Below are positions 3,831 through 27,099 of a stretch of 28,579 nt of DNA, piece after piece. The translations under genes and the position numbers were made by a program. Numbering within the stretch: position 1 is the first letter of the stretch; each line of letters begins with the position of its first letter. Source of the stretch: a virus. A model generated the notes under the pieces. It did not search any database, was not told where the DNA came from, and saw only the letters and a program-made list of their open reading frames with translations. The stretch is from positions 1-28,579 of IMG/VR virus record IMGVR_UViG_3300029913_000087. One strand, given 5' to 3'.

Positions 3831-6578
3831 ATGTCAGTCAAAAGATATGCGAAAGCACTAATCGAACGTCGCGGAATCGAGTTTGATGAATGGATGGAAG
3901 GTATCCGTTCTCAAAATGAAGGGGCGGTCCCGAAAGATTTTATTAACAGGACGGCGAAGACTGTTCTTCGTAAGTGCGACCCGAAGCAATTTCTGTTGTC
4001 ACACGCTACAATTGTAGCCTCTGTTGATACTTTTGCGCCGAAAGGCGTAAAGACCGGGCGGTTGATGAATCGCGGATGTCAAATTGACGTTCGTTGGCCT
4101 GAATTTCGTGTGAAGCCGGAATGTCACCCGATCATAAATAACAATGGTGATGCCTGGGAACGCTCACTCCTTCTATCTACATACCGCACATTTATCGGTG
4201 CACATAATTATTTAGAGCATATTCAGTTACCCGAGTTATCCAAGGGTTTCATTGTAGACGCCATTGCTCGGGACCTCGGGAAGAGCTGTTATATAGATAT
4301 CCTTGTAGGAACAGATCGGAAGCATAACCAATTAGTTTCTGATATTATTAGTGGGGCCATAACTGGTCTCAGCATGGGCTGCTGGGAAGCTTCAACACCA
4401 GTAACTCTTGATGACGGAAGTACTATTCCTATCTGTGATGTTCTACCGGATATGAATGTTCTCACTCAATCTGGGAACATTCGGAGGGTTGAGAATCTTC
4501 AAATTCGTCAAAATCGTTGGGATATGGTGGATTTGAAAATCGTTGGTCTTCCGCATATTAAATGTACATCTAATCATGGGATTTACATAGCTGCACGTGA
4601 AGAAATTGAATACAAGAAAGCCTGTAGTGGGAAAAAGAATCCGATTCCTCGTGCCTATAACTTCCAAAAAATAGAAGCCGGGCAATTAAAGATAGGTGAC
4701 ATAGTTGCTACACCTATTCCTCGCGATATAATCGATCCTGGCATTTCTGAATCAGATGCTAGATTTCTTGGATTATATATGGCCGAAGGTTATAAGATTG
4801 ATATAACTGAAAATACTTTTGGGATAGGATTTTGTATTGGGGCCCACGAGTTTGACATTATTAATGAAATCGAAACGAAGATTGACCAGATCTCATGGGC
4901 TGCTAAAGAAACCAAATGGGCAGTTGGAGGTGGTCGAATTCCGCTTTCTACTACAAAACGTTTCGCTCGTAACGGGTGTTATTTAGTTTCTAGAAGTCAT
5001 TCTGCCCGATTGTTAGTAGATAAGTTTATTCATGGTCGACATGCAAAAGATAAACTTCTTGATAAAACTGTTCTGCTTTGGCCGAAGCATCTTCAACTGG
5101 CCTTTCTTGGCGGTGTTATTGATGGGGATGGTTGTGTCAGTACCAGAAACACGAAATATGAAACAAAATCTGTCCACGTATCAACTAGAAATTTTAATCT
5201 AGCCAATCAACTGTTCTATATGGCCCTTCGTTGTGGCATAGTTACAACTATTTCATCTGCGAAAAGAAAAGGTACCAAAAAGGTTCCTAATGGTGCTGGA
5301 ATTGATTATCAACTGAAATTCCGAAATGACTCAGCTGAATCCATTCCATCTTCAAAAGTAAAGAGTTTTATTGGTCAATTTAACAGTGAAATTTCTCGAC
5401 TAATCAGTGAGAAGGATAGATGGATAGCGGGCGATCATATGTATGCCCGTGTGCAGTCTTTACGAATTTTTGACTATGAAGGATTCGTTTATGACCTACA
5501 GGTAGACGATGATCACACCTATACAGCTGGTCACATTGGTGTTTCTAACTGTATCAGTTTGTTCACTACTTGCACCAAATGCGGCAACGTTGCATCGGAC
5601 GATGCTCAGCTTTGTCCGTGCATTCTATACGACGGCAAACTTTCAACATTCGTAGACGAAGCCGGTCAATCGCAAATTTTAGGTGAGTTGATTGGTCACG
5701 TATCAGTTCCAAATTCAAATCAATTTATTGAAGCTTCTTGGGTTCGTAATCCTGCTTTCCGTGGAGCAGTTCGTCGCAATCTATTGAATGCTGATGTCTC
5801 CCAGATTGCATCAAAAATGGGAGAAGCTAAATGGGTTTATGAGCTTCGCTCTCAAATTCCGGAAATAGATGGGATTAAGAAAGCTGCATCATCAAGACGA
5901 GCCGATCAGGGTCAGGGTCAATCATTCGACAGTGTATTTGGTGATGATGCCGACCAAGGTGATGGTCAGGACCAAGGTCAGGGTGCACAGGGTCAAGGTG
6001 GCGGCCAAGGCCAAGGCCAAGATTCAAGTCAAGGCCAAGGCCAAGATTCAAGTCAAGGTCAACAAAGTCCAGATGCTTCTAAGCCTGCAGAACCGAAGAC
6101 CGACAAAGTTGACTCGATGTTGGATAAAATTACAGAGCAACTTCTCACGAGTATTACTCAAAAGCTAACTGATAAATTAGCTCCAAAGCCCGAAGATGTT
6201 GGAACTGTTACTTCTCCACCAATCGATCTTGAAGCTGGTAATGATAATTTAGTTCGGTCTACGGTCGATTTTACTCGTCTTCTTCGGAAGAAGTTTTCGT
6301 CCAATAAACGCCTAGTGCAATGGGCGGAACGTGCCTATAAAATCCGTTCTGCTAATTCTGGAAAATTATCACATCAAGAACGCATAATTCTCTCTTGGAT
6401 TGAAGATCGCTGTCAGGATCGAATCTATCCTCCAAGTTTATATAAAACTGCAATTCAAGTTGGTTCAATAAATAACTATCCAAGTAAAATTTCTTTTATT
6501 GCAGCATGCAATATGAAACTCGGTAGAAATGTTTCTCAGCAAGAAGGTAAATTCTTGATTTGGAAGGCTAAAGTATAA
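3831..6578 (+). CDS. Prohead (capsid maturation) protease with intein and Gln/Gly-rich C-terminal extension
   Basis: The 915-residue precursor would leave a 525-residue product after splicing. The exteins carry the two hallmark segments of HK97-type prohead serine proteases. One is GAITGLSMG (putative catalytic Ser181), matching the LSxG motif; the other is EASWVRNPAF (residues 634-643), matching the E-x-S-x-V-x-x-P-A motif. Upstream, SKGFIVDAIARDLGKS fits the preceding strand region. A zinc ribbon is inserted after the splice site (Cys581, Cys584, Cys595, Cys597). A Q/G-rich repeat region (about residues 690-745) and a helical C-terminal domain follow, possibly scaffold-like. The family cleaves scaffold and capsid precursors during head maturation. 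It lies two genes upstream of the decoration and capsid genes. No SD is seen at the expected distance; a hairpin abuts the ATG. Confidence 0.78.
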   Translation: MSVKRYAKALIERRGIEFDEWMEGIRSQNEGAVPKDFINRTAKTVLRKCDPKQFLLSHATIVASVDTFAPKGVKTGRLMNRGCQIDVRWPEFRVKPECHPIINNNGDAWERSLLLSTYRTFIGAHNYLEHIQLPELSKGFIVDAIARDLGKSCYIDILVGTDRKHNQLVSDIISGAITGLSMGCWEASTPVTLDDGSTIPICDVLPDMNVLTQSGNIRRVENLQIRQNRWDMVDLKIVGLPHIKCTSNHGIYIAAREEIEYKKACSGKKNPIPRAYNFQKIEAGQLKIGDIVATPIPRDIIDPGISESDARFLGLYMAEGYKIDITENTFGIGFCIGAHEFDIINEIETKIDQISWAAKETKWAVGGGRIPLSTTKRFARNGCYLVSRSHSARLLVDKFIHGRHAKDKLLDKTVLLWPKHLQLAFLGGVIDGDGCVSTRNTKYETKSVHVSTRNFNLANQLFYMALRCGIVTTISSAKRKGTKKVPNGAGIDYQLKFRNDSAESIPSSKVKSFIGQFNSEISRLISEKDRWIAGDHMYARVQSLRIFDYEGFVYDLQVDDDHTYTAGHIGVSNCISLFTTCTKCGNVASDDAQLCPCILYDGKLSTFVDEAGQSQILGELIGHVSVPNSNQFIEASWVRNPAFRGAVRRNLLNADVSQIASKMGEAKWVYELRSQIPEIDGIKKAASSRRADQGQGQSFDSVFGDDADQGDGQDQGQGAQGQGGGQGQGQDSSQGQGQDSSQGQQSPDASKPAEPKTDKVDSMLDKITEQLLTSITQKLTDKLAPKPEDVGTVTSPPIDLEAGNDNLVRSTVDFTRLLRKKFSSNKRLVQWAERAYKIRSANSGKLSHQERIILSWIEDRCQDRIYPPSLYKTAIQVGSINNYPSKISFIAACNMKLGRNVSQQEGKFLIWKAKV
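4380..5549 (+). mobile_element. Intein with LAGLIDADG homing endonuclease domain (precursor residues 184-573)
   Basis: The element begins at Cys184 directly after LSMG and ends with GHIGVSN before Cys574, so both splice-junction nucleophiles are Cys. The N-terminal splicing block (ASTPVTLDDGSTIPICDV) and block B-like TSNHG are present. The C-terminal block YDLQVDDDHTYTAGHIGVSN is canonical except that the penultimate residue is Ser rather than the usual His, a variant known in other inteins. The endonuclease has two LAGLIDADG motifs, FLGLYMAEG (residues 312-320) and FLGGVIDGDG (425-434). Both acidic residues are intact, so it may still be active. Its position two residues after the putative catalytic serine is typical of inteins, which favour highly conserved active-site codons. 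Confidence 0.93.
6006..6053 (+). repeat. Two identical 24-bp tandem repeats in the protease gene
   Basis: Positions 6006-6029 and 6030-6053 are identical. Each encodes an 8-residue Q-G-Q-G-Q-D-S-S unit. They sit within a wider Q/G-rich linker (about 5905-6065), so copy number could vary between related phages by slippage. Confidence 0.9.
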
Positions 6579-9079: not shown

Positions 9080-9970
9080 ATGAATCCATTCGGCGTACAG
9101 GTTGTTGATAACACCCTCAAAGAGGCGATGGTTGATAAGTTCATCGGATCGCAAGCCGGACGTAAGCGTCTAGCTGCCTCGATGATTCAGCCACTTCGTG
9201 AGCGGCGCGATTACTCGTCCGTTGGCCGCAAGACCTTTTTGGTCGAGCAGCTCCCGGACGGTGCTCTCCCGATCTACGATAAGGATCCGGACGTCACGGC
9301 ATACGTGATTGGTGAGGAAGGCGAGTCGATCACGGCGGTCATGAAGCCCCGCCGCGTTATCTTCCCGCTCTTCGAGATTGCGGCCCTCCCCAAGGCCCCT
9401 CTTACGCAAATCAAGGAGCGTCGGTACGACCTCCTGAAGCGTATGCAGGACCTCGGCAAGGCGCAGGTTCAGGCTGCGGAAGACGATCGCGTCTTCAGCA
9501 TCATGGACGCTCTCGCCGTCAACGGGTTCGATGAACTCCCCGGTCAGACAAACCCGGACATTCCGGTTGTCGCCCCGATTTCGCCAGCCGTCCTCGCGGA
9601 CGCGTTTGCCGAGATCGAGCGTCAGGACCTTCGCGTTGCTCGCGTTTACATGAACGCTACGGATTACGCAGATATCCGTAAGTTCGGTCGCGACGTTCTC
9701 GACATCGAGAGCCAGGCAACCCTCTGGAAGACAGGAATGATGGCAACCGGGTGGAATGCCCAGTTCATCGTCAGCCGTTTAGTCGCCGCAGGCGTCGTCT
9801 ACATCACCTGCGAGCCGGAGCACTTCGGTCGTATCCCGGTTAGAACAGAGTTGACGGTTCTCTCGGCAGACAACCCGGAAGAGAGGACGATCGGTTTTAG
9901 CATGTTCGAAAATCTTGGCATCGGTGCATACAACCCTCGCGGTCTCGTTCGTTTGATAGTCACTCGATAA
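9080..9970 (+). CDS. Major capsid protein (HK97-fold type)
   Basis: The product has 296 residues with AAGGA-type SD sequence upstream and the most GC-rich, uniform codon use in the window, as expected for the most abundant virion protein. The N-terminal arm contains AGRKRLAASMIQPLRERRDY. The segment PDGALPIYDKDPDVTAYV with GEEGE after it and the later R-V-Y-M-N-A-T-D-Y-A-D-I-R region fit the strand/spine-helix order of HK97-like coat proteins. The C-terminal IGAYNPRGLVRLIV strand also fits. It follows the protease and decoration genes, and a strong hairpin closes the gene. The N-terminal motif is reused in two small reverse-strand genes downstream (12703 and 13298). No large N-terminal delta domain is evident. 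Confidence 0.75.
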   Translation: MNPFGVQVVDNTLKEAMVDKFIGSQAGRKRLAASMIQPLRERRDYSSVGRKTFLVEQLPDGALPIYDKDPDVTAYVIGEEGESITAVMKPRRVIFPLFEIAALPKAPLTQIKERRYDLLKRMQDLGKAQVQAAEDDRVFSIMDALAVNGFDELPGQTNPDIPVVAPISPAVLADAFAEIERQDLRVARVYMNATDYADIRKFGRDVLDIESQATLWKTGMMATGWNAQFIVSRLVAAGVVYITCEPEHFGRIPVRTELTVLSADNPEERTIGFSMFENLGIGAYNPRGLVRLIVTR

Positions 9971-9987: not shown

Positions 9988-10021
9988 TTGAGCCCCATTG
10001 ACGAAAGTCGGTGGGGCTCAA
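9988..10021 (+). terminator. Strong hairpin downstream of the capsid gene, abutting the next start codon
   Basis: TTGAGCCCCATTGAC (9988-10002) pairs over 15 bp with GTCGGTGGGGCTCAA (10007-10021), including two G-T wobbles, around a GAAA tetraloop. The T-rich run after it is poor. It probably stabilises or ends the capsid mRNA. The ATG of the nuclease gene is the next base, so the SD-like GGTGGGG lies inside the stem and would be hidden in read-through transcripts. Confidence 0.75.
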
Positions 10022-11527
10022 ATGTATGTTTTGGGGCATACAATGTTATGTCCCTGCGGAAAAGAAGCCACCCATCAGAACAGTTGTTTTAACTGTTCAT
10101 TATCTAAAAATTATCTTGATGAGTATCCTTCATTAAATAAAATACTGGACCTTGGATCAATAGAGAAATTACAAATTCCAATATCAGCAGCAAAATTGGG
10201 GGCCTTGGTTGCTATTTGTCAAAAATGTAGTTCATTAACAAAAATTACTATTGTTAGTTTGTTAAAACAAATTAAAAGAAATATTAAAAATAAGGCATAT
10301 TTCTTTTATCAATGTCATACATGTTCAAAGGCTGGCAAATCTGGCATATCAACAAATAATGTTCTTAAACTCATCAATTTGGATCTCACTATTCAAAAAT
10401 TTGGCGGATTGCCAGATAACATCAAAAAAGGAATGGTTGTTGCTCAATGTGAAGACTGCAAAGGATTGTTTGATGTGAAAATGGGTAGTTTGCTTCATCA
10501 AGCAAGACGGCACAAACTTAATGGTAGAACTTGTATCTACAAATGTTTCAAATGTGGCGTACGACGTCCAGATGCGTTAGAAAAATCTTCGGCGTCTCGC
10601 GCTCTTCAATTACAAGAAGGACATATTTCTGGCCTTGAAAAGGCCATGGGAAATAGATTAGATTATCTTGGAATCAAATTTGAAAGTCAATTTAGACTTG
10701 ATATGTATGTTTGGGATTTCTTCCTTCCAGATCAAAAATTATTGATCGATGTAAATGGCGAATATTGGCATTCTCTGCCGAAAAATTTATCAAAAGATAA
10801 AGCTAAGATAACGTATACTGAGAGATACCATTCTGAATATAAAATTCTCGTTGTTCAAGAGAAAAATTTTTTGAATCCACTTAGAGTTGATAAAATTCTG
10901 CAAGAAAAACTCGGTATCACTTCCGAAATTCCACTTATCGATTTCGATTTTTCTGTTGTAAATATTGTTCAATTACCAATAGGTTCTAAGTACTCAACTC
11001 CTTACGCTACATTCCTAAACTCATATCATTATGCTTGTTGCGGAAGATCTGGAAAAGTTGTATTCGGTGCTTTTTTAGGGTCTGAGTTAATAGCTGTTTG
11101 CAAATTTAGTTCTGTTGTCCGCAATGAAGTAGCCTCCTCAATGAAATTAAAATGTACTCAAGTGATGGAACTTGACAGATTTTGCATTCATCCAACATAT
11201 CAAAAAAAGAATTTTGCTTCTTGGTTCATATCAAGATGTTCTAAGAATATATTTACTTCTTATCAAAATATCTTAGGACTTGCTAGTTTTGCTGATTCGA
11301 CGTTCGGTCATTCAGGGACCATTTACAAAGCTTCAAATTGGACTGAAGTTGGTCAAACTAAACCTAGTTATCATTACATGGATGATCTTGGGATACCTAT
11401 TAATAAAAAACGAGTTTATGATATCGCTTCGAAACTTTGTATGAAAGAAGCAGAATATGTTCAGAAACATAATCTTGTGAAATATAAGGAACTTCCGAAA
11501 ACAAAGTTTATTTTATTGCGAAAATAA
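10022..11527 (+). CDS. Zinc-ribbon/Vsr-like nuclease/Mom-like GNAT fusion, probable homing endonuclease
   Basis: ATG 10022 is preferred; an in-frame TTG at 9998 lies inside the hairpin. The product has 501 residues. The N-terminal ~190 residues hold several CxxC/CxC zinc-ribbon sites (CPCG, CQKC, CHTC, CEDC, CFKC), likely DNA-binding. Residues about 215-280 match the Vsr/EDxHD (PD-(D/E)xK-like) nuclease pattern: FESQF, YVWDFFLP, LLIDVNGEYWH. Residues about 325-460 resemble the GNAT-fold Mom DNA-modification family: ELDRFCIHPTYQKKNFASW and ADSTFGHSGTIYKASNW. The Vsr-like fold is known in the freestanding homing endonuclease I-Bth0305I. The Mom-like domain might modify DNA or only contribute structure. 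The gene is AT-rich, unlike the capsid gene it follows, indicating separate origin. Confidence 0.65.
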   Translation: MYVLGHTMLCPCGKEATHQNSCFNCSLSKNYLDEYPSLNKILDLGSIEKLQIPISAAKLGALVAICQKCSSLTKITIVSLLKQIKRNIKNKAYFFYQCHTCSKAGKSGISTNNVLKLINLDLTIQKFGGLPDNIKKGMVVAQCEDCKGLFDVKMGSLLHQARRHKLNGRTCIYKCFKCGVRRPDALEKSSASRALQLQEGHISGLEKAMGNRLDYLGIKFESQFRLDMYVWDFFLPDQKLLIDVNGEYWHSLPKNLSKDKAKITYTERYHSEYKILVVQEKNFLNPLRVDKILQEKLGITSEIPLIDFDFSVVNIVQLPIGSKYSTPYATFLNSYHYACCGRSGKVVFGAFLGSELIAVCKFSSVVRNEVASSMKLKCTQVMELDRFCIHPTYQKKNFASWFISRCSKNIFTSYQNILGLASFADSTFGHSGTIYKASNWTEVGQTKPSYHYMDDLGIPINKKRVYDIASKLCMKEAEYVQKHNLVKYKELPKTKFILLRK

Positions 11528-12239: not shown

Positions 12240-12716
12240 ATGGAAGTTTTCTGTACAGCCAAAAAACTCACCGAATATCAAGACACCATCGAATTTTCTG
12301 CATTCATTCTCCAAGGTTGGAAGCTTGAACCAGGAACCAAGCTGGAACAGCGGAGAGATGAGGTCGTGATCGCTACGTGGGAACTAGTAAATCATACCCA
12401 CAAGTCTCTCACCGTGAAGAAAATTGGTATCCCAATTGAATTTGGCGATATGTTCTATGTCGAAAATCCCGAGGTAATCGTGATTCCAGTTCAGGTCGAG
12501 TCAGAAATGACGAGCGCTTTGGTATTTGCCGGTAAAAATTGGAAGATGGCGTCCCCAAAGAAGTGGGTTCCGACAGAACTTCTAACGACAACAGTCCAAA
12601 CTGGAATGAAGGATACTCTAGGCGAAGTCATTATTCTTGAGAAGAATTATTCAGTCTTCAAATTCATCAATAATCTGAATGAGACTATATTCGTCGCAGT
12701 ACTCAAGACTCCATGA
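12240..12716 (+). CDS. Beta-rich small protein, function unknown
   Basis: The product has 158 residues. No SD precedes the ATG; only an AT-rich GTAAAATAAATC run does. Alternating hydrophobic residues throughout (VVIATWELVNHT, PEVIVIPVQV, TIFVAVLKTP) indicate a mostly beta fold, such as a small sandwich. It has no catalytic or metal motif and no signal peptide. The 3' end overlaps the convergent gene at 12703 by 14 bases. It could be a minor virion protein or an accessory gene; I see nothing that decides between these. Confidence 0.65.
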   Translation: MEVFCTAKKLTEYQDTIEFSAFILQGWKLEPGTKLEQRRDEVVIATWELVNHTHKSLTVKKIGIPIEFGDMFYVENPEVIVIPVQVESEMTSALVFAGKNWKMASPKKWVPTELLTTTVQTGMKDTLGEVIILEKNYSVFKFINNLNETIFVAVLKTP

Positions 12717-12984
12717 CTTGATGGACGCAACACTCTTCATCTGTATGGGAAACTGCGTCCTCGGGTTCCCAATGTGGCTTCCCGCATTCGTTACACATTC
12801 CCCAAGGTCCGCCGAAACGTCTACGGCGGATTGGGTCTATCATAGCTTTGGCTAAAGCCAACTTTGCCGGAGCCAAATTTTGGTAAATATCCATAATTTG
12901 CTTTATTTGCTCCGGAGAGGTTGCACCTAATTTTTCAAATTTATCTTTGAGCGTCATTGTTCCATGATTCCATGAAACAGGCAT
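12703..12984 (-). CDS. Zinc-knuckle miniprotein with a capsid N-arm-like motif
   Basis: The product is 93 residues from ATG 12984, or 84 from ATG 12957. After a helical N-terminal part it has LAKAMIDPIRRRRF (residues 44-57). This aligns with LAASMIQPLRERRDY of the major capsid protein, with 8 identities in the first 13 positions. A CNECGKPH site (Cys64, Cys67) follows at once, and a CC-H cluster near the end could complete a zinc site. It is the last gene of a reverse-strand run 13298, 13007, 12703 with short gaps, so co-transcription is likely. It may bind capsid partners by mimicking the coat-protein arm; that is inference. Confidence 0.65.
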   Translation of the reverse strand: MPVSWNHGTMTLKDKFEKLGATSPEQIKQIMDIYQNLAPAKLALAKAMIDPIRRRRFGGPWGMCNECGKPHWEPEDAVSHTDEECCVHQVMES

Positions 12985-13006
12985 TCGACGTCATCGTGTT
13001 CTACGA

Positions 13007-13288
13007 TCATTCCATGTACATGAAGACGAACTCTCCAGTTCCTGCTGGAAGAAGCAGGAGGGCCTGCCTTATGACCTCTCGAGCCCAGTCATCCTGAACC
13101 CGCTCAGCACAATCCAGCATAGCTATGGACTCAGGAGTCTTGGGCGGGACTCCCACCCTCATAAGATGACGACACTCGATTCCGAGCGTCTCTAGCAGGG
13201 TGATAACCTGCAGCACAAAGGACTCTCGGGTATATGCGTACATCCCCGGAGTCAGGGCCATCTCTTCGAGCCGCTTTCGGAAGTTCAT
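13007..13288 (-). CDS. Small reverse-strand helical protein, function unknown
   Basis: The product has 93 residues. AGG lies just upstream of the ATG, and the stop codon of the preceding reverse gene is about ten bases away, so the two are likely translated from one mRNA. The sequence is mostly amphipathic helix (FVLQVITLLETLGIE, DDWAREVIRQALLLLPAG) with two Cys. There is no signal peptide or clear membrane segment. It is the middle gene of the three-gene reverse run. I do not recognise the family. Confidence 0.65.
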   Translation of the reverse strand: MNFRKRLEEMALTPGMYAYTRESFVLQVITLLETLGIECRHLMRVGVPPKTPESIAMLDCAERVQDDWAREVIRQALLLLPAGTGEFVFMYME

Positions 13289-13297
13289 CCTGGCTGC

Positions 13298-13516
13298 CTA
13301 CTGCAGAAGTAACGTAAAAGCAAGAGGATCCAGGTCCTTGACAATCCGGCGGGACCTAGTACCTAAATCGATATTACATTTTGGACACTTTCTGTAATCT
13401 AACGTTGTTCTAAGCGGTTGCATCATGGACGCAGCCAACTTGGTTCTCCCAGACGCAGTTGCCATATACTTCGAGATTAATGCTTTTTTCTCTTCCTCAG
13501 TAACTATCGGTTGCAT
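13298..13516 (-). CDS. 72-residue capsid N-arm paralogue with zinc knuckle
   Basis: Residues 12-41 align without gaps to residues 16-45 of the major capsid protein, with 15 of 30 positions identical. The core is SGRTKLAASMMQPLRTTLDY. Directly after it comes CPKC (Cys44, Cys47), and the protein then ends with a short basic and hydrophobic tail. The rest of the capsid fold is absent, so it is not a second coat protein. It is the first gene of the three-gene reverse run. No SD is seen; an ATAAATAG box lies about 22 bases upstream. Possible roles are a capsid-assembly regulator, a minor capsid-binding protein, or a remnant of a duplicated capsid gene; the added CxxC argues for a selected function. 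Confidence 0.7.
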   Translation of the reverse strand: MQPIVTEEEKKALISKYMATASGRTKLAASMMQPLRTTLDYRKCPKCNIDLGTRSRRIVKDLDPLAFTLLLQ

Positions 13517-14458: not shown

Positions 14459-14731
14459 CTAGGCACTGTGAACTTGTTCCATCGCAAGAACAGGCGGTAA
14501 TTCTTTTAAAGCTTCTTTCACTAATTCTACATCATAGACTGGCGCAAGCGAAACATACCATTTTGTGGGTTTACCTGTTTCACCCACCAAACATACTACC
14601 CGTCTCACGTTAGTTGATGTAACGATGCTCACCGCATATTCACGTTCAGTGCGTCCGAAACCCTTGGAGAAGACGTTTTTTATATAGAGAACTGAGCCGT
14701 CAGATAATTTTTTCTCCCAGATCATGACCAT
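14459..14731 (-). CDS. Small reverse-strand protein, function unknown
   Basis: The product is 90 residues from ATG 14731, with a second in-frame ATG at 14725. The sequence alternates in a beta pattern (REYAVSIVTSTNVRRVVCLV, KWYVSLAPVYD), then has a helix (VELVKEALKEL). No metal or catalytic motif is visible. Its stop is five bases from the end of the convergent gene, and both stops lie in a CTAGGCAT direct repeat. It follows the reverse gene at 14747 by 15 bases and could share its mRNA. Function unknown. Confidence 0.65.
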   Translation of the reverse strand: MVMIWEKKLSDGSVLYIKNVFSKGFGRTEREYAVSIVTSTNVRRVVCLVGETGKPTKWYVSLAPVYDVELVKEALKELPPVLAMEQVHSA

Positions 14732-25080: not shown

Positions 25081-25101
25081 AACCCACATAAGTGGTGGGT
25101 T
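25081..25101 (+). terminator. Hairpin between the virion gene and the first GIY-YIG gene
   Basis: AACCCAC (25081-25087) pairs with GTGGGTT (25095-25101) over seven bases with a seven-base loop. The T-tract is poor. It sits 14 bases after the stop at 25066 and 13 bases before ATG 25115, and may end or attenuate transcription into the endonuclease gene. Confidence 0.55.
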
Positions 25102-25114
25102 GGTAGGGTCAACT

Positions 25115-25948
25115 ATGGCCCCAGTATGGATAATTTATTGCCATACCCACACTGAATCCCAACGGCGTTACATTGGTCTGACTAAAAAGACCATGTTACG
25201 CCGTTGGCGTGAACATATTCAGAACTCAAGTCGTAAACAAAGAGGGTATTCGCATTTGTGGAACGCGATTCGTAAATATGGAAAAGATGCATTTGAACAT
25301 CAGGAATTTTCAGTGAAATATGACACGATTGAAGATGCGAACGCCGCTGAAGAATTTGCGATTGAATTGCTTTGCACTAGAGACCCCAAATTTGGATTTA
25401 ATTTCATGAAGGGAGGCACACATACTCCACATCCAGTTAAGAATCCATGGGATCGTCCAGAATTTCGAAATAATAATTTGGATCATACTCGAAACATGGG
25501 TAAATCAAATTCTGCTAGAAAGCACAATTCTCACATGGCAAAGCAGCGGTGGCAGGATCCTAGTTATCGAGAAAAGGTAATAGCAACATGTATTGCTACT
25601 CGTTCTACTCCAGAGTCATTTGCTCGTTCATCTAAGGCGCAGAAAGAAAGATTTTTAAAACCTGAAGAACTAGCGAAGTCTGTTCTTAATTCTACTATAA
25701 TGTGGCAGTCTGATGAATACCGAGCTAATAATGCGAAACTTTGGGAAGATCCTGATTTTCGTGAGAGGTGTCAGTCGGGACTTATTCGCGGTTCTTCATT
25801 GAATAAGTCCAAGACCCACTGTCGTAATGGTCACGAATACTCTGAACAGAACACCTACGTAAAACCAAAAGGTAATCGAGTGTGTCGTATTTGTATTGGA
25901 GCTAGTAGAATTAAATCGGACGAGAAACACGCGTCCCGTACCAACTAG
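25115..25948 (+). CDS. GIY-YIG homing endonuclease, copy 1
   Basis: ATG 25115 is chosen over an in-frame TTG at 25100 inside the hairpin; there is no SD. The product has 277 residues. The catalytic domain shows IIYC (6-9) and RRYIGLTKKT (17-26), then RRWREH, AIRKYGKDAF and AEEFAIE, as in freestanding GIY-YIG enzymes. The middle is made of W/x-x-D-P/S-x-Y/F-R repeats (WQDPSYREK, WEDPDFRER) typical of DNA-contacting linkers. The C-terminus has a zinc site, HCRNGHEYSEQNTY with CRIC. The first ~100 residues are nearly the same as in the gene at 26218. The gene is AT-rich relative to the upstream virion gene. Confidence 0.88.
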   Translation: MAPVWIIYCHTHTESQRRYIGLTKKTMLRRWREHIQNSSRKQRGYSHLWNAIRKYGKDAFEHQEFSVKYDTIEDANAAEEFAIELLCTRDPKFGFNFMKGGTHTPHPVKNPWDRPEFRNNNLDHTRNMGKSNSARKHNSHMAKQRWQDPSYREKVIATCIATRSTPESFARSSKAQKERFLKPEELAKSVLNSTIMWQSDEYRANNAKLWEDPDFRERCQSGLIRGSSLNKSKTHCRNGHEYSEQNTYVKPKGNRVCRICIGASRIKSDEKHASRTN

Positions 25949-26217: not shown

Positions 26218-27099
26218 ATGTCTTGGATAATCTATTGTCACATCCATATTGAATCGCAGCGTCGTTATATAGGTCTTACTAAAAAGACTATACACCAACG
26301 TTGGCGTGAACATTGTATTCGAGCAGAAAGTCATTTTTCGAATGCAATTCGTAAATATGGGGAAGATGCATTTGAACATTATGAATTCGCACAGAAATAC
26401 GATACTATTGAAGATGCGAATCGAGCGGAAGAATTTGCAATTGAATTTTGGTGCACTAAAGATCCTGAATTCGGGTTCAACATAATGAATGGTGGATTTC
26501 ATATTCCTCATTCAGTTAAGAAAAATCACTGGGATGACCCTTCATATCGTGCGGCAGCATCTGCCCGATCAAAAGAAATTAATTCAAGACCAATCACAAA
26601 AATGAAAATATCAGCTGCTCTTACTGGTAGAAAGATGGACCAAGGGCATAAGGATAAAATTTCTGTTTTTCAGAAACAGTATAATGAGGATCCGGTAATT
26701 CGTAACAAACGATCTTTAATTTCTAGAAAAGCATGGTCTTCTCCAGGTTTTAGGGAGAAACAATCTCTATCTCATATGGGAAAAGTTACTAGCCCGGAAA
26801 CCCGTAGAAAATTGAGTGAAGTCTGTAAATCTAGTTTACCTGAAATTCGTGCCAAAATTAGTGCATCTTCAAAATCCAATACCCCGGAAGCTAGAGAGAA
26901 CTATCGAATTAAATTACTTGAATTTTTCAGAAAGAAACGTGAACAGCACCCAAATTATCATATGTGTAAAAATCATGGTCTGACTCTGTTTAGTGACTGT
27001 TATAAATCATTCAGGAATGGTTATACTAGATACACTTGTAAGAAGTGTGCATTGAAAAATGGACAGAAATACCGTTCGTCTTTGATTAAGGGCCTTTGA
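26218..27099 (+). CDS. GIY-YIG homing endonuclease, copy 2 (NUMOD3-type repeats)
   Basis: The product has 293 residues and no SD. The catalytic part is SWIIYCHIHIESQRRYIGL (2-20), then QRWREH, AIRKYGEDAF and AEEFAIE, paralogous to the gene at 25115. After it come NUMOD3-like DNA-binding repeats (KISAALTGRKM, SPETRRKLSEV and a third near residue 220). The C-terminus has a different zinc site, CKNHG with CKKC. The shared catalytic half and divergent DNA-binding half suggest duplication followed by change of target site. It is closely packed after the DUF5659-like gene. Confidence 0.88.
   Translation: MSWIIYCHIHIESQRRYIGLTKKTIHQRWREHCIRAESHFSNAIRKYGEDAFEHYEFAQKYDTIEDANRAEEFAIEFWCTKDPEFGFNIMNGGFHIPHSVKKNHWDDPSYRAAASARSKEINSRPITKMKISAALTGRKMDQGHKDKISVFQKQYNEDPVIRNKRSLISRKAWSSPGFREKQSLSHMGKVTSPETRRKLSEVCKSSLPEIRAKISASSKSNTPEARENYRIKLLEFFRKKREQHPNYHMCKNHGLTLFSDCYKSFRNGYTRYTCKKCALKNGQKYRSSLIKGL

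Follow-up and report, generated by a model that had tools for sequence, protein, structure and literature searches.

Miniproteins built on single pieces of the major capsid protein, often with a predicted zinc finger and a VMES ending, in huge phages of the phage G type

Why a huge phage should encode, in short genes behind its capsid gene, isolated pieces of capsid sequence was the question raised by a 28,579-base IMG/VR virus record, which holds a head-gene region and is called the window below. Two reverse-strand reading frames, P72 and P93, had been singled out in a first-pass annotation as independent small genes that pair the N-arm of the major capsid protein (MCP) with a zinc knuckle. 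Both were confirmed in position (Table 1). Short genes, mostly on the reverse strand, were clustered at 11.9-15.0 kb of the window, behind a Mom-domain/endonuclease-like gene (9998-11527) that lies immediately behind the MCP gene. The AlphaFold model of the window MCP had a pLDDT of 33. Elsewhere in the window, a capsid-protease candidate gene (3831-6578) was apparently split after LSMGC by an intein-like insertion, two candidate homing endonuclease genes of a GIY-YIG-like type (25100-25948 and 26218-27099) were located close to the tail genes, and a reverse-strand gene of 90 aa (14459-14731) ended in QVHSA, similar to variants of the VMES tail described below.

Table 1. Positions in the window of the capsid gene, the miniprotein genes and their parts
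Feature	Position	Strand	Remark
Major capsid protein (MCP)	9080-9970	+	PHROG 2522; phage G gp27 type, PDB 6wkk
MCP N-arm segment copied in miniproteins (residues 8-45)	9101-9214	+	comparison with miniproteins
P93	12703-12984	-	N-arm-like stretch, C2HC finger and VMES tail; likely true start 12957
P93 C-terminal VMES tail	12706-12717	-	
P93 C2HC zinc-finger ligand span (C64, C67, H80, C85)	12730-12795	-	
P93 N-arm-like stretch (residues 31-55)	12820-12894	-	
18-codon ORF	12954-13010	-	MIVEHDDVECLFHGIMEQ, then stop; resembles His-Cys half of finger plus tail; TGA overlaps ATG at 12957
P93b	13007-13288	-	93-aa gene between P72 and P93; end EFVFMYME, tail-like without final S
P72	13298-13516	-	72-aa miniprotein; MCP N-arm copy, then CxxC (half zinc site), without VMES tail
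P72 CPKC	13376-13387	-	from sequence; without second ligand pair
P72 N-arm-like stretch (residues 4-41)	13394-13507	-	

The claimed match of P72 to the MCP proved exact: residues 12-41 aligned without gaps to MCP residues 16-45, with 15 of 30 positions identical. The whole MCP retrieved P72 from the window by tblastn at E=2e-6. With P72 as query, PHROG 2522 (major head protein; 8e-4), LR745208 (2e-5) and gp27 of Bacillus phage G (1e-3) were matched, and the best match in a small MCP-only database had E=1e-10. Judged by these search scores, the match exceeds chance. Over 38 aa, the N-arm-like stretch was 58% identical to the MCP of record L081 and 45% identical to the MCP of the window. An MCP segment was recognised as homologous by PHROG 2522, tblastn and profile search; the PHROG 2522 match covered only positions 39-75 of 318, and the rest of the profile, which a full-length HK97-fold MCP would carry, was absent from P72.

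A zinc knuckle had been read into both proteins, directly behind the arm. In P93 a complete predicted C2HC finger was found (C64-x2-C67-x12-H80-x4-C85, with Cys-Cys and His-Cys ligand pairs at finger spacing), though about 8 residues away from the arm, whereas P72 had a CxxC close behind the arm (DYRKCPKC) with no His or Cys after it, at most a putative knuckle. P72, which has neither a complete finger nor a tail, may be a degenerate member of the group. The weaker arm copy of P93 was indeed weak by itself (E 1e-4 against the MCP-only database and 0.3 with an N-arm HMM), but P93 was placed in the N-arm group because an ORF of another record that follows its MCP gene immediately, L003:3942-4160, matched both P93 (1e-9) and the MCP arm. 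P72 and P93 are better described as related architectures of one group than as separate inventions. Translation of P93 probably starts at M10, the ATG of which overlaps the stop of the upstream 18-codon ORF. Codon usage clearly favoured the own frame of P93 and only marginally that of P72. The AF2 model of P93 was confident in the arm helices only; its finger region reached a pLDDT of about 60, and a PDB search gave no fold match to the model. Homologue searches with P93b gave none.

In order to follow the architecture beyond the window, 80 MCP relatives were fetched and all their ORFs were searched, and whole-record searches were added; the records are metagenomic and partly incomplete, and the genes are simple ORF calls. 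Miniproteins with the MCP N-arm and a CxxC or C2HC site were detected in at least six other huge-phage records. The N-arm plus CxxC ORFs were located in L003, L033, L034 (two), L145, L147, L150 and L161, and the whole-record searches placed N-arm plus CxxC miniproteins in genomes G005, G018 and G029. Other MCP pieces (loop, core and C-terminal strand) were used in L024, L034, L054, L145, L149-L151, L155, L158, L159 and L169. The segment around residues 87-121 appeared in miniproteins of L034, L054, L155 and L169, residues 115-165 in L151, and residues 165-245 in L149, L150, L159 and L146, and in L024:12850-13122 a finger was inserted between the C-terminal strands. Against PDB sequences, the miniprotein profile matched residues 8-40 of phage G gp27 (1.2e-5) as well as C2H2 fingers (9e-9), and PHROG 2522 matched L161 at 4e-6. 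An MCP segment, 79% identical to the MCP of the same phage over 29 residues, also formed the end of gp172 of the cultured phage Tunturi_5, where it was preceded by a hydrophobic segment, possibly for membrane or export. The host of Tunturi_5 is Tunturiibacter (PMC11924767).

Some related ORFs differed in form. Three MCP-fragment ORFs of G016 (L238:13397-13564, L238:17462-17653 and L241:15468-15662) had a second motif in common at the C terminus, (P)KKIIT[KR]. MCP stretches of about residues 62-105 were embedded in larger ORFs of 383 aa (L031:14992-16140) and 397 aa (L016:6598-7788). The N-arm of L161 was matched best by L214:2725-3633, an MCP-like but divergent ORF about 300 residues long on a 435-kb contig. 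Genes that seemed split when compared with G015 proved to be antisense ORFs in which all three stops occur, and no case of recoding.

A lack of homologues pairing arm and CxxC in other phages had been named as what would refute the earlier view that P72 and P93 are selected rather than decayed; many such homologues were found, and the view was supported. Decay of such genes was rejected because in-frame pairings of arm and CxxC recur. Among the N-arm copies, synonymous change was saturated and pN/pS was about 0.58, against 0.97 in codon shuffles, in a comparison of distant copies chosen by protein similarity that leans toward conservation; the value is supportive of selection, short of conclusive. 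No close orthologues of P72, P93, L157 or, beyond the arm, L161 were found in IMG/VR, and individual miniprotein genes, to judge from these sequences, turn over fast. The fragments were not consistently nearer to the MCPs of another clade than to those of their own (18 of 32, p=0.6). Since they were about equally far from both MCP clades, most would not have been copied recently from the capsid gene of the same phage. An origin from the MCPs of rival lineages was dropped, as best hits agreed with it and clade medians did not; the idea of a weapon aimed at rivals thereby loses one of its arguments.

A role in the capsid of the same phage, where the miniproteins would fill the N-arm site and serve as assembly regulator, plug or minor cement, could be weighed from their distribution. 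N-arm pieces were the commonest class, and some genes, in L003, the window, L033, L034 and L054, were located 0.1-8 kb downstream of the MCP gene. However, most others were far from it, which leaves little of the closeness to the capsid gene that had been emphasized, and no syntenic orthologues of P72 or P93, as a cement or decoration protein should have, were found beside the MCP in relatives. Pieces came from every MCP region, core segments included, P72 was nearer to the MCP of the other clade than to that of its own, and the MCP-fragment genes were absent from the sister genome G015 despite an MCP about 90% identical. An own-capsid cement or assembly role was disfavoured because of this accessory distribution, the multiple copies and the use of core segments. 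The proposed functions of assembly regulator, arm-site occupant or cement thus found no support, and we consider this role distinctly unlikely.

The specificity for the capsid protein was evaluated with a control of 74 families of long proteins, each conserved in four or more of six genomes. One profile was built per family, and in four genomes the short ORFs at other places that matched less than half of this profile were counted. For the MCP, 20 remote short fragments were found in the four genomes, 8 of them tailed, while 55 of the 74 families had none. The next families were a collagen-repeat protein (10) and DnaJ (8), none of whose fragments were tailed, and these counts are explained by common repeats and domains. 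The MCP excess was unique among the 74 families. This bears on a second explanation, that a mobile finger-plus-tail module was fused repeatedly to random coding scraps, among which MCP scraps are merely common and the MCP part has little function. Phage proteins are mosaic, tail and finger were found on many unrelated N-termini, and turnover per gene was high; yet the MCP excess stands against it, as do pieces that stayed in frame over strong divergence with arm residues kept, and such shuffling seems rather unlikely.

The tail, [VI]M[ED]S, ended many MCP-fragment miniproteins and many unrelated small proteins. In G005 (L165-L184 and L204), 64 of 648 genes carried it, about 10% (VMES 40, VMDS 12, IMES 10), and permuted motifs gave zero. 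Pattern counts were 61 in G005, 41 in G016 and 26 in G003, against 0-1 for the permuted control. Phage G and several relatives had a pattern count of zero, and G015 and G022 had no MCP fragments and essentially no tail. MCP fragments were tailed in 9 of 24 cases compared with 209 of 1960 background small genes (p=0.0005), about five times commoner. Upstream of the motif, V at position -7 and E at -10 were also preferred. A profile scan with the tail found few loci, and a wider alignment gave no usable pattern. The tailed proteins of G005 included many unrelated small ones, often with paired cysteines. In L167:17353-19602 of the same genome, tandem tailed genes overlapped by four bases (ATGA), which suggests translational coupling.

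The ending might be a mere by-product of a DNA signal for such coupling (ATGGARTCATGA stop-start overlap), and TCATGA does overlap the next ATG in many arrays. But Ser was encoded by TCN or AGC, Glu alternated with Asp and GAG with GAA, V at -7 and E at -10 were preferred as well, and many tailed genes had no overlapping start. Because the codons vary, the tail is a signal at the protein level; a purely DNA-level signal was rejected on this variety, and the by-product explanation is very improbable. A VMES-type ending may possibly be a genome-wide C-terminal targeting tag. One form of this idea is that tailed proteins are packaged in the capsid or docked to a hub, with MCP pieces helping head loading. 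Dozens of unrelated small proteins with one short tail, the V at -7 and the [VI]MES end are consistent with it. So is a tailed family of 144 residues, whose homologues in Xanthomonas phage XaC1 and Pseudomonas phage nickie aligned only to about residue 121; there the tail looks added. However, the capsid-protease and scaffold candidates of the window were without tail and many tailed genes were outside structural regions, and we regard packaging or docking as unlikely. The tail and the MCP fragments, also found apart, may be separate stories.

The architecture, its recurrence, the MCP specificity and the protein-level tail were observed here: P72 and P93 are members of a set of accessory miniproteins in huge phage-G-type phages, consisting of a diverged MCP piece (in these two the N-arm), often a C2HC finger and often a VMES end. 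We tentatively propose, as a possible reading, that they are putative decoys or inhibitors. Most likely, the miniproteins would interfere with something that recognises the MCP. The MCP segment would be the variable "head" and finger and tail the common part: the piece would bind whatever binds that MCP segment, be it an adjacent capsid subunit, an assembly factor or a host immune sensor for capsid protein, and finger and tail would stabilise the miniprotein or tie it to a common partner. The likeliest use would be in conflict, where the miniprotein would be a decoy for host defences that sense capsids or would inhibit capsid assembly in a competing phage. These readings were favoured because MCPs and one MCP peptide trigger bacterial immunity, as in CapRel with phage MCP and Lit with the T4 Gol peptide (PMC9712102). 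The lack of close orthologues and the absence from G015 and G022 are expected of fast-turnover conflict genes. The more specific version, in which a shifting repertoire of MCP pieces with finger and common tag acts in trans to blind capsid-sensing immunity or poison rival capsids, the tag linking to a shared partner, is doubtful.

What is new here is the miniprotein architecture, which is well supported, and its recurrence; the mechanism is what we infer. In open-access papers, no prior description of capsid-fragment/zinc-finger miniproteins was found, no account of phages that spread single segments of the capsid protein over the genome in small tagged genes of their own, and nothing relevant on VMES, capsid fragments and C-terminal tags. 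Capsid proteins are immunity triggers and satellite targets, and a new strategy of counter-defence or competition would be indicated should the pieces work as decoys or poisons. That about one gene in ten of one phage ends in a common four-residue tail points to a targeting or docking system. Both points can be tested directly, and the cultured Tunturi_5 carries a capsid-fragment gene.

Compared with known systems, the miniproteins have the sequence of the N-arm and other segments in common with the phage G-type MCP (PHROG 2522; gp27, PDB 6wkk; Pfam PF05065 Phage_capsid fold), but each holds one segment of about 25-80 residues, with which no HK97 fold is possible, and finger and tail are added. 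With C2H2/C2HC zinc fingers they share Cys-Cys and His-Cys pairs, finger-like spacing and a profile match; differently, they are phage-encoded and have a single predicted finger plus a VMES tail. In capsid-sensing immunity (CapRel, Lit), the capsid protein or a short capsid peptide is likewise the recognised feature, but there the capsid protein activates defence, whereas here free-standing capsid pieces are separate phage genes. Capsid-interference proteins of phage satellites (P4 Sid and PICI capsid-size factors) are small and act on the capsid of another element; they are not known to be MCP fragments. In T4, an N-terminal capsid targeting sequence is common to several unrelated internal proteins, a short terminal signal as with VMES, but VMES is C-terminal and different in sequence, and is no N-terminal signal cleaved by a prohead protease.
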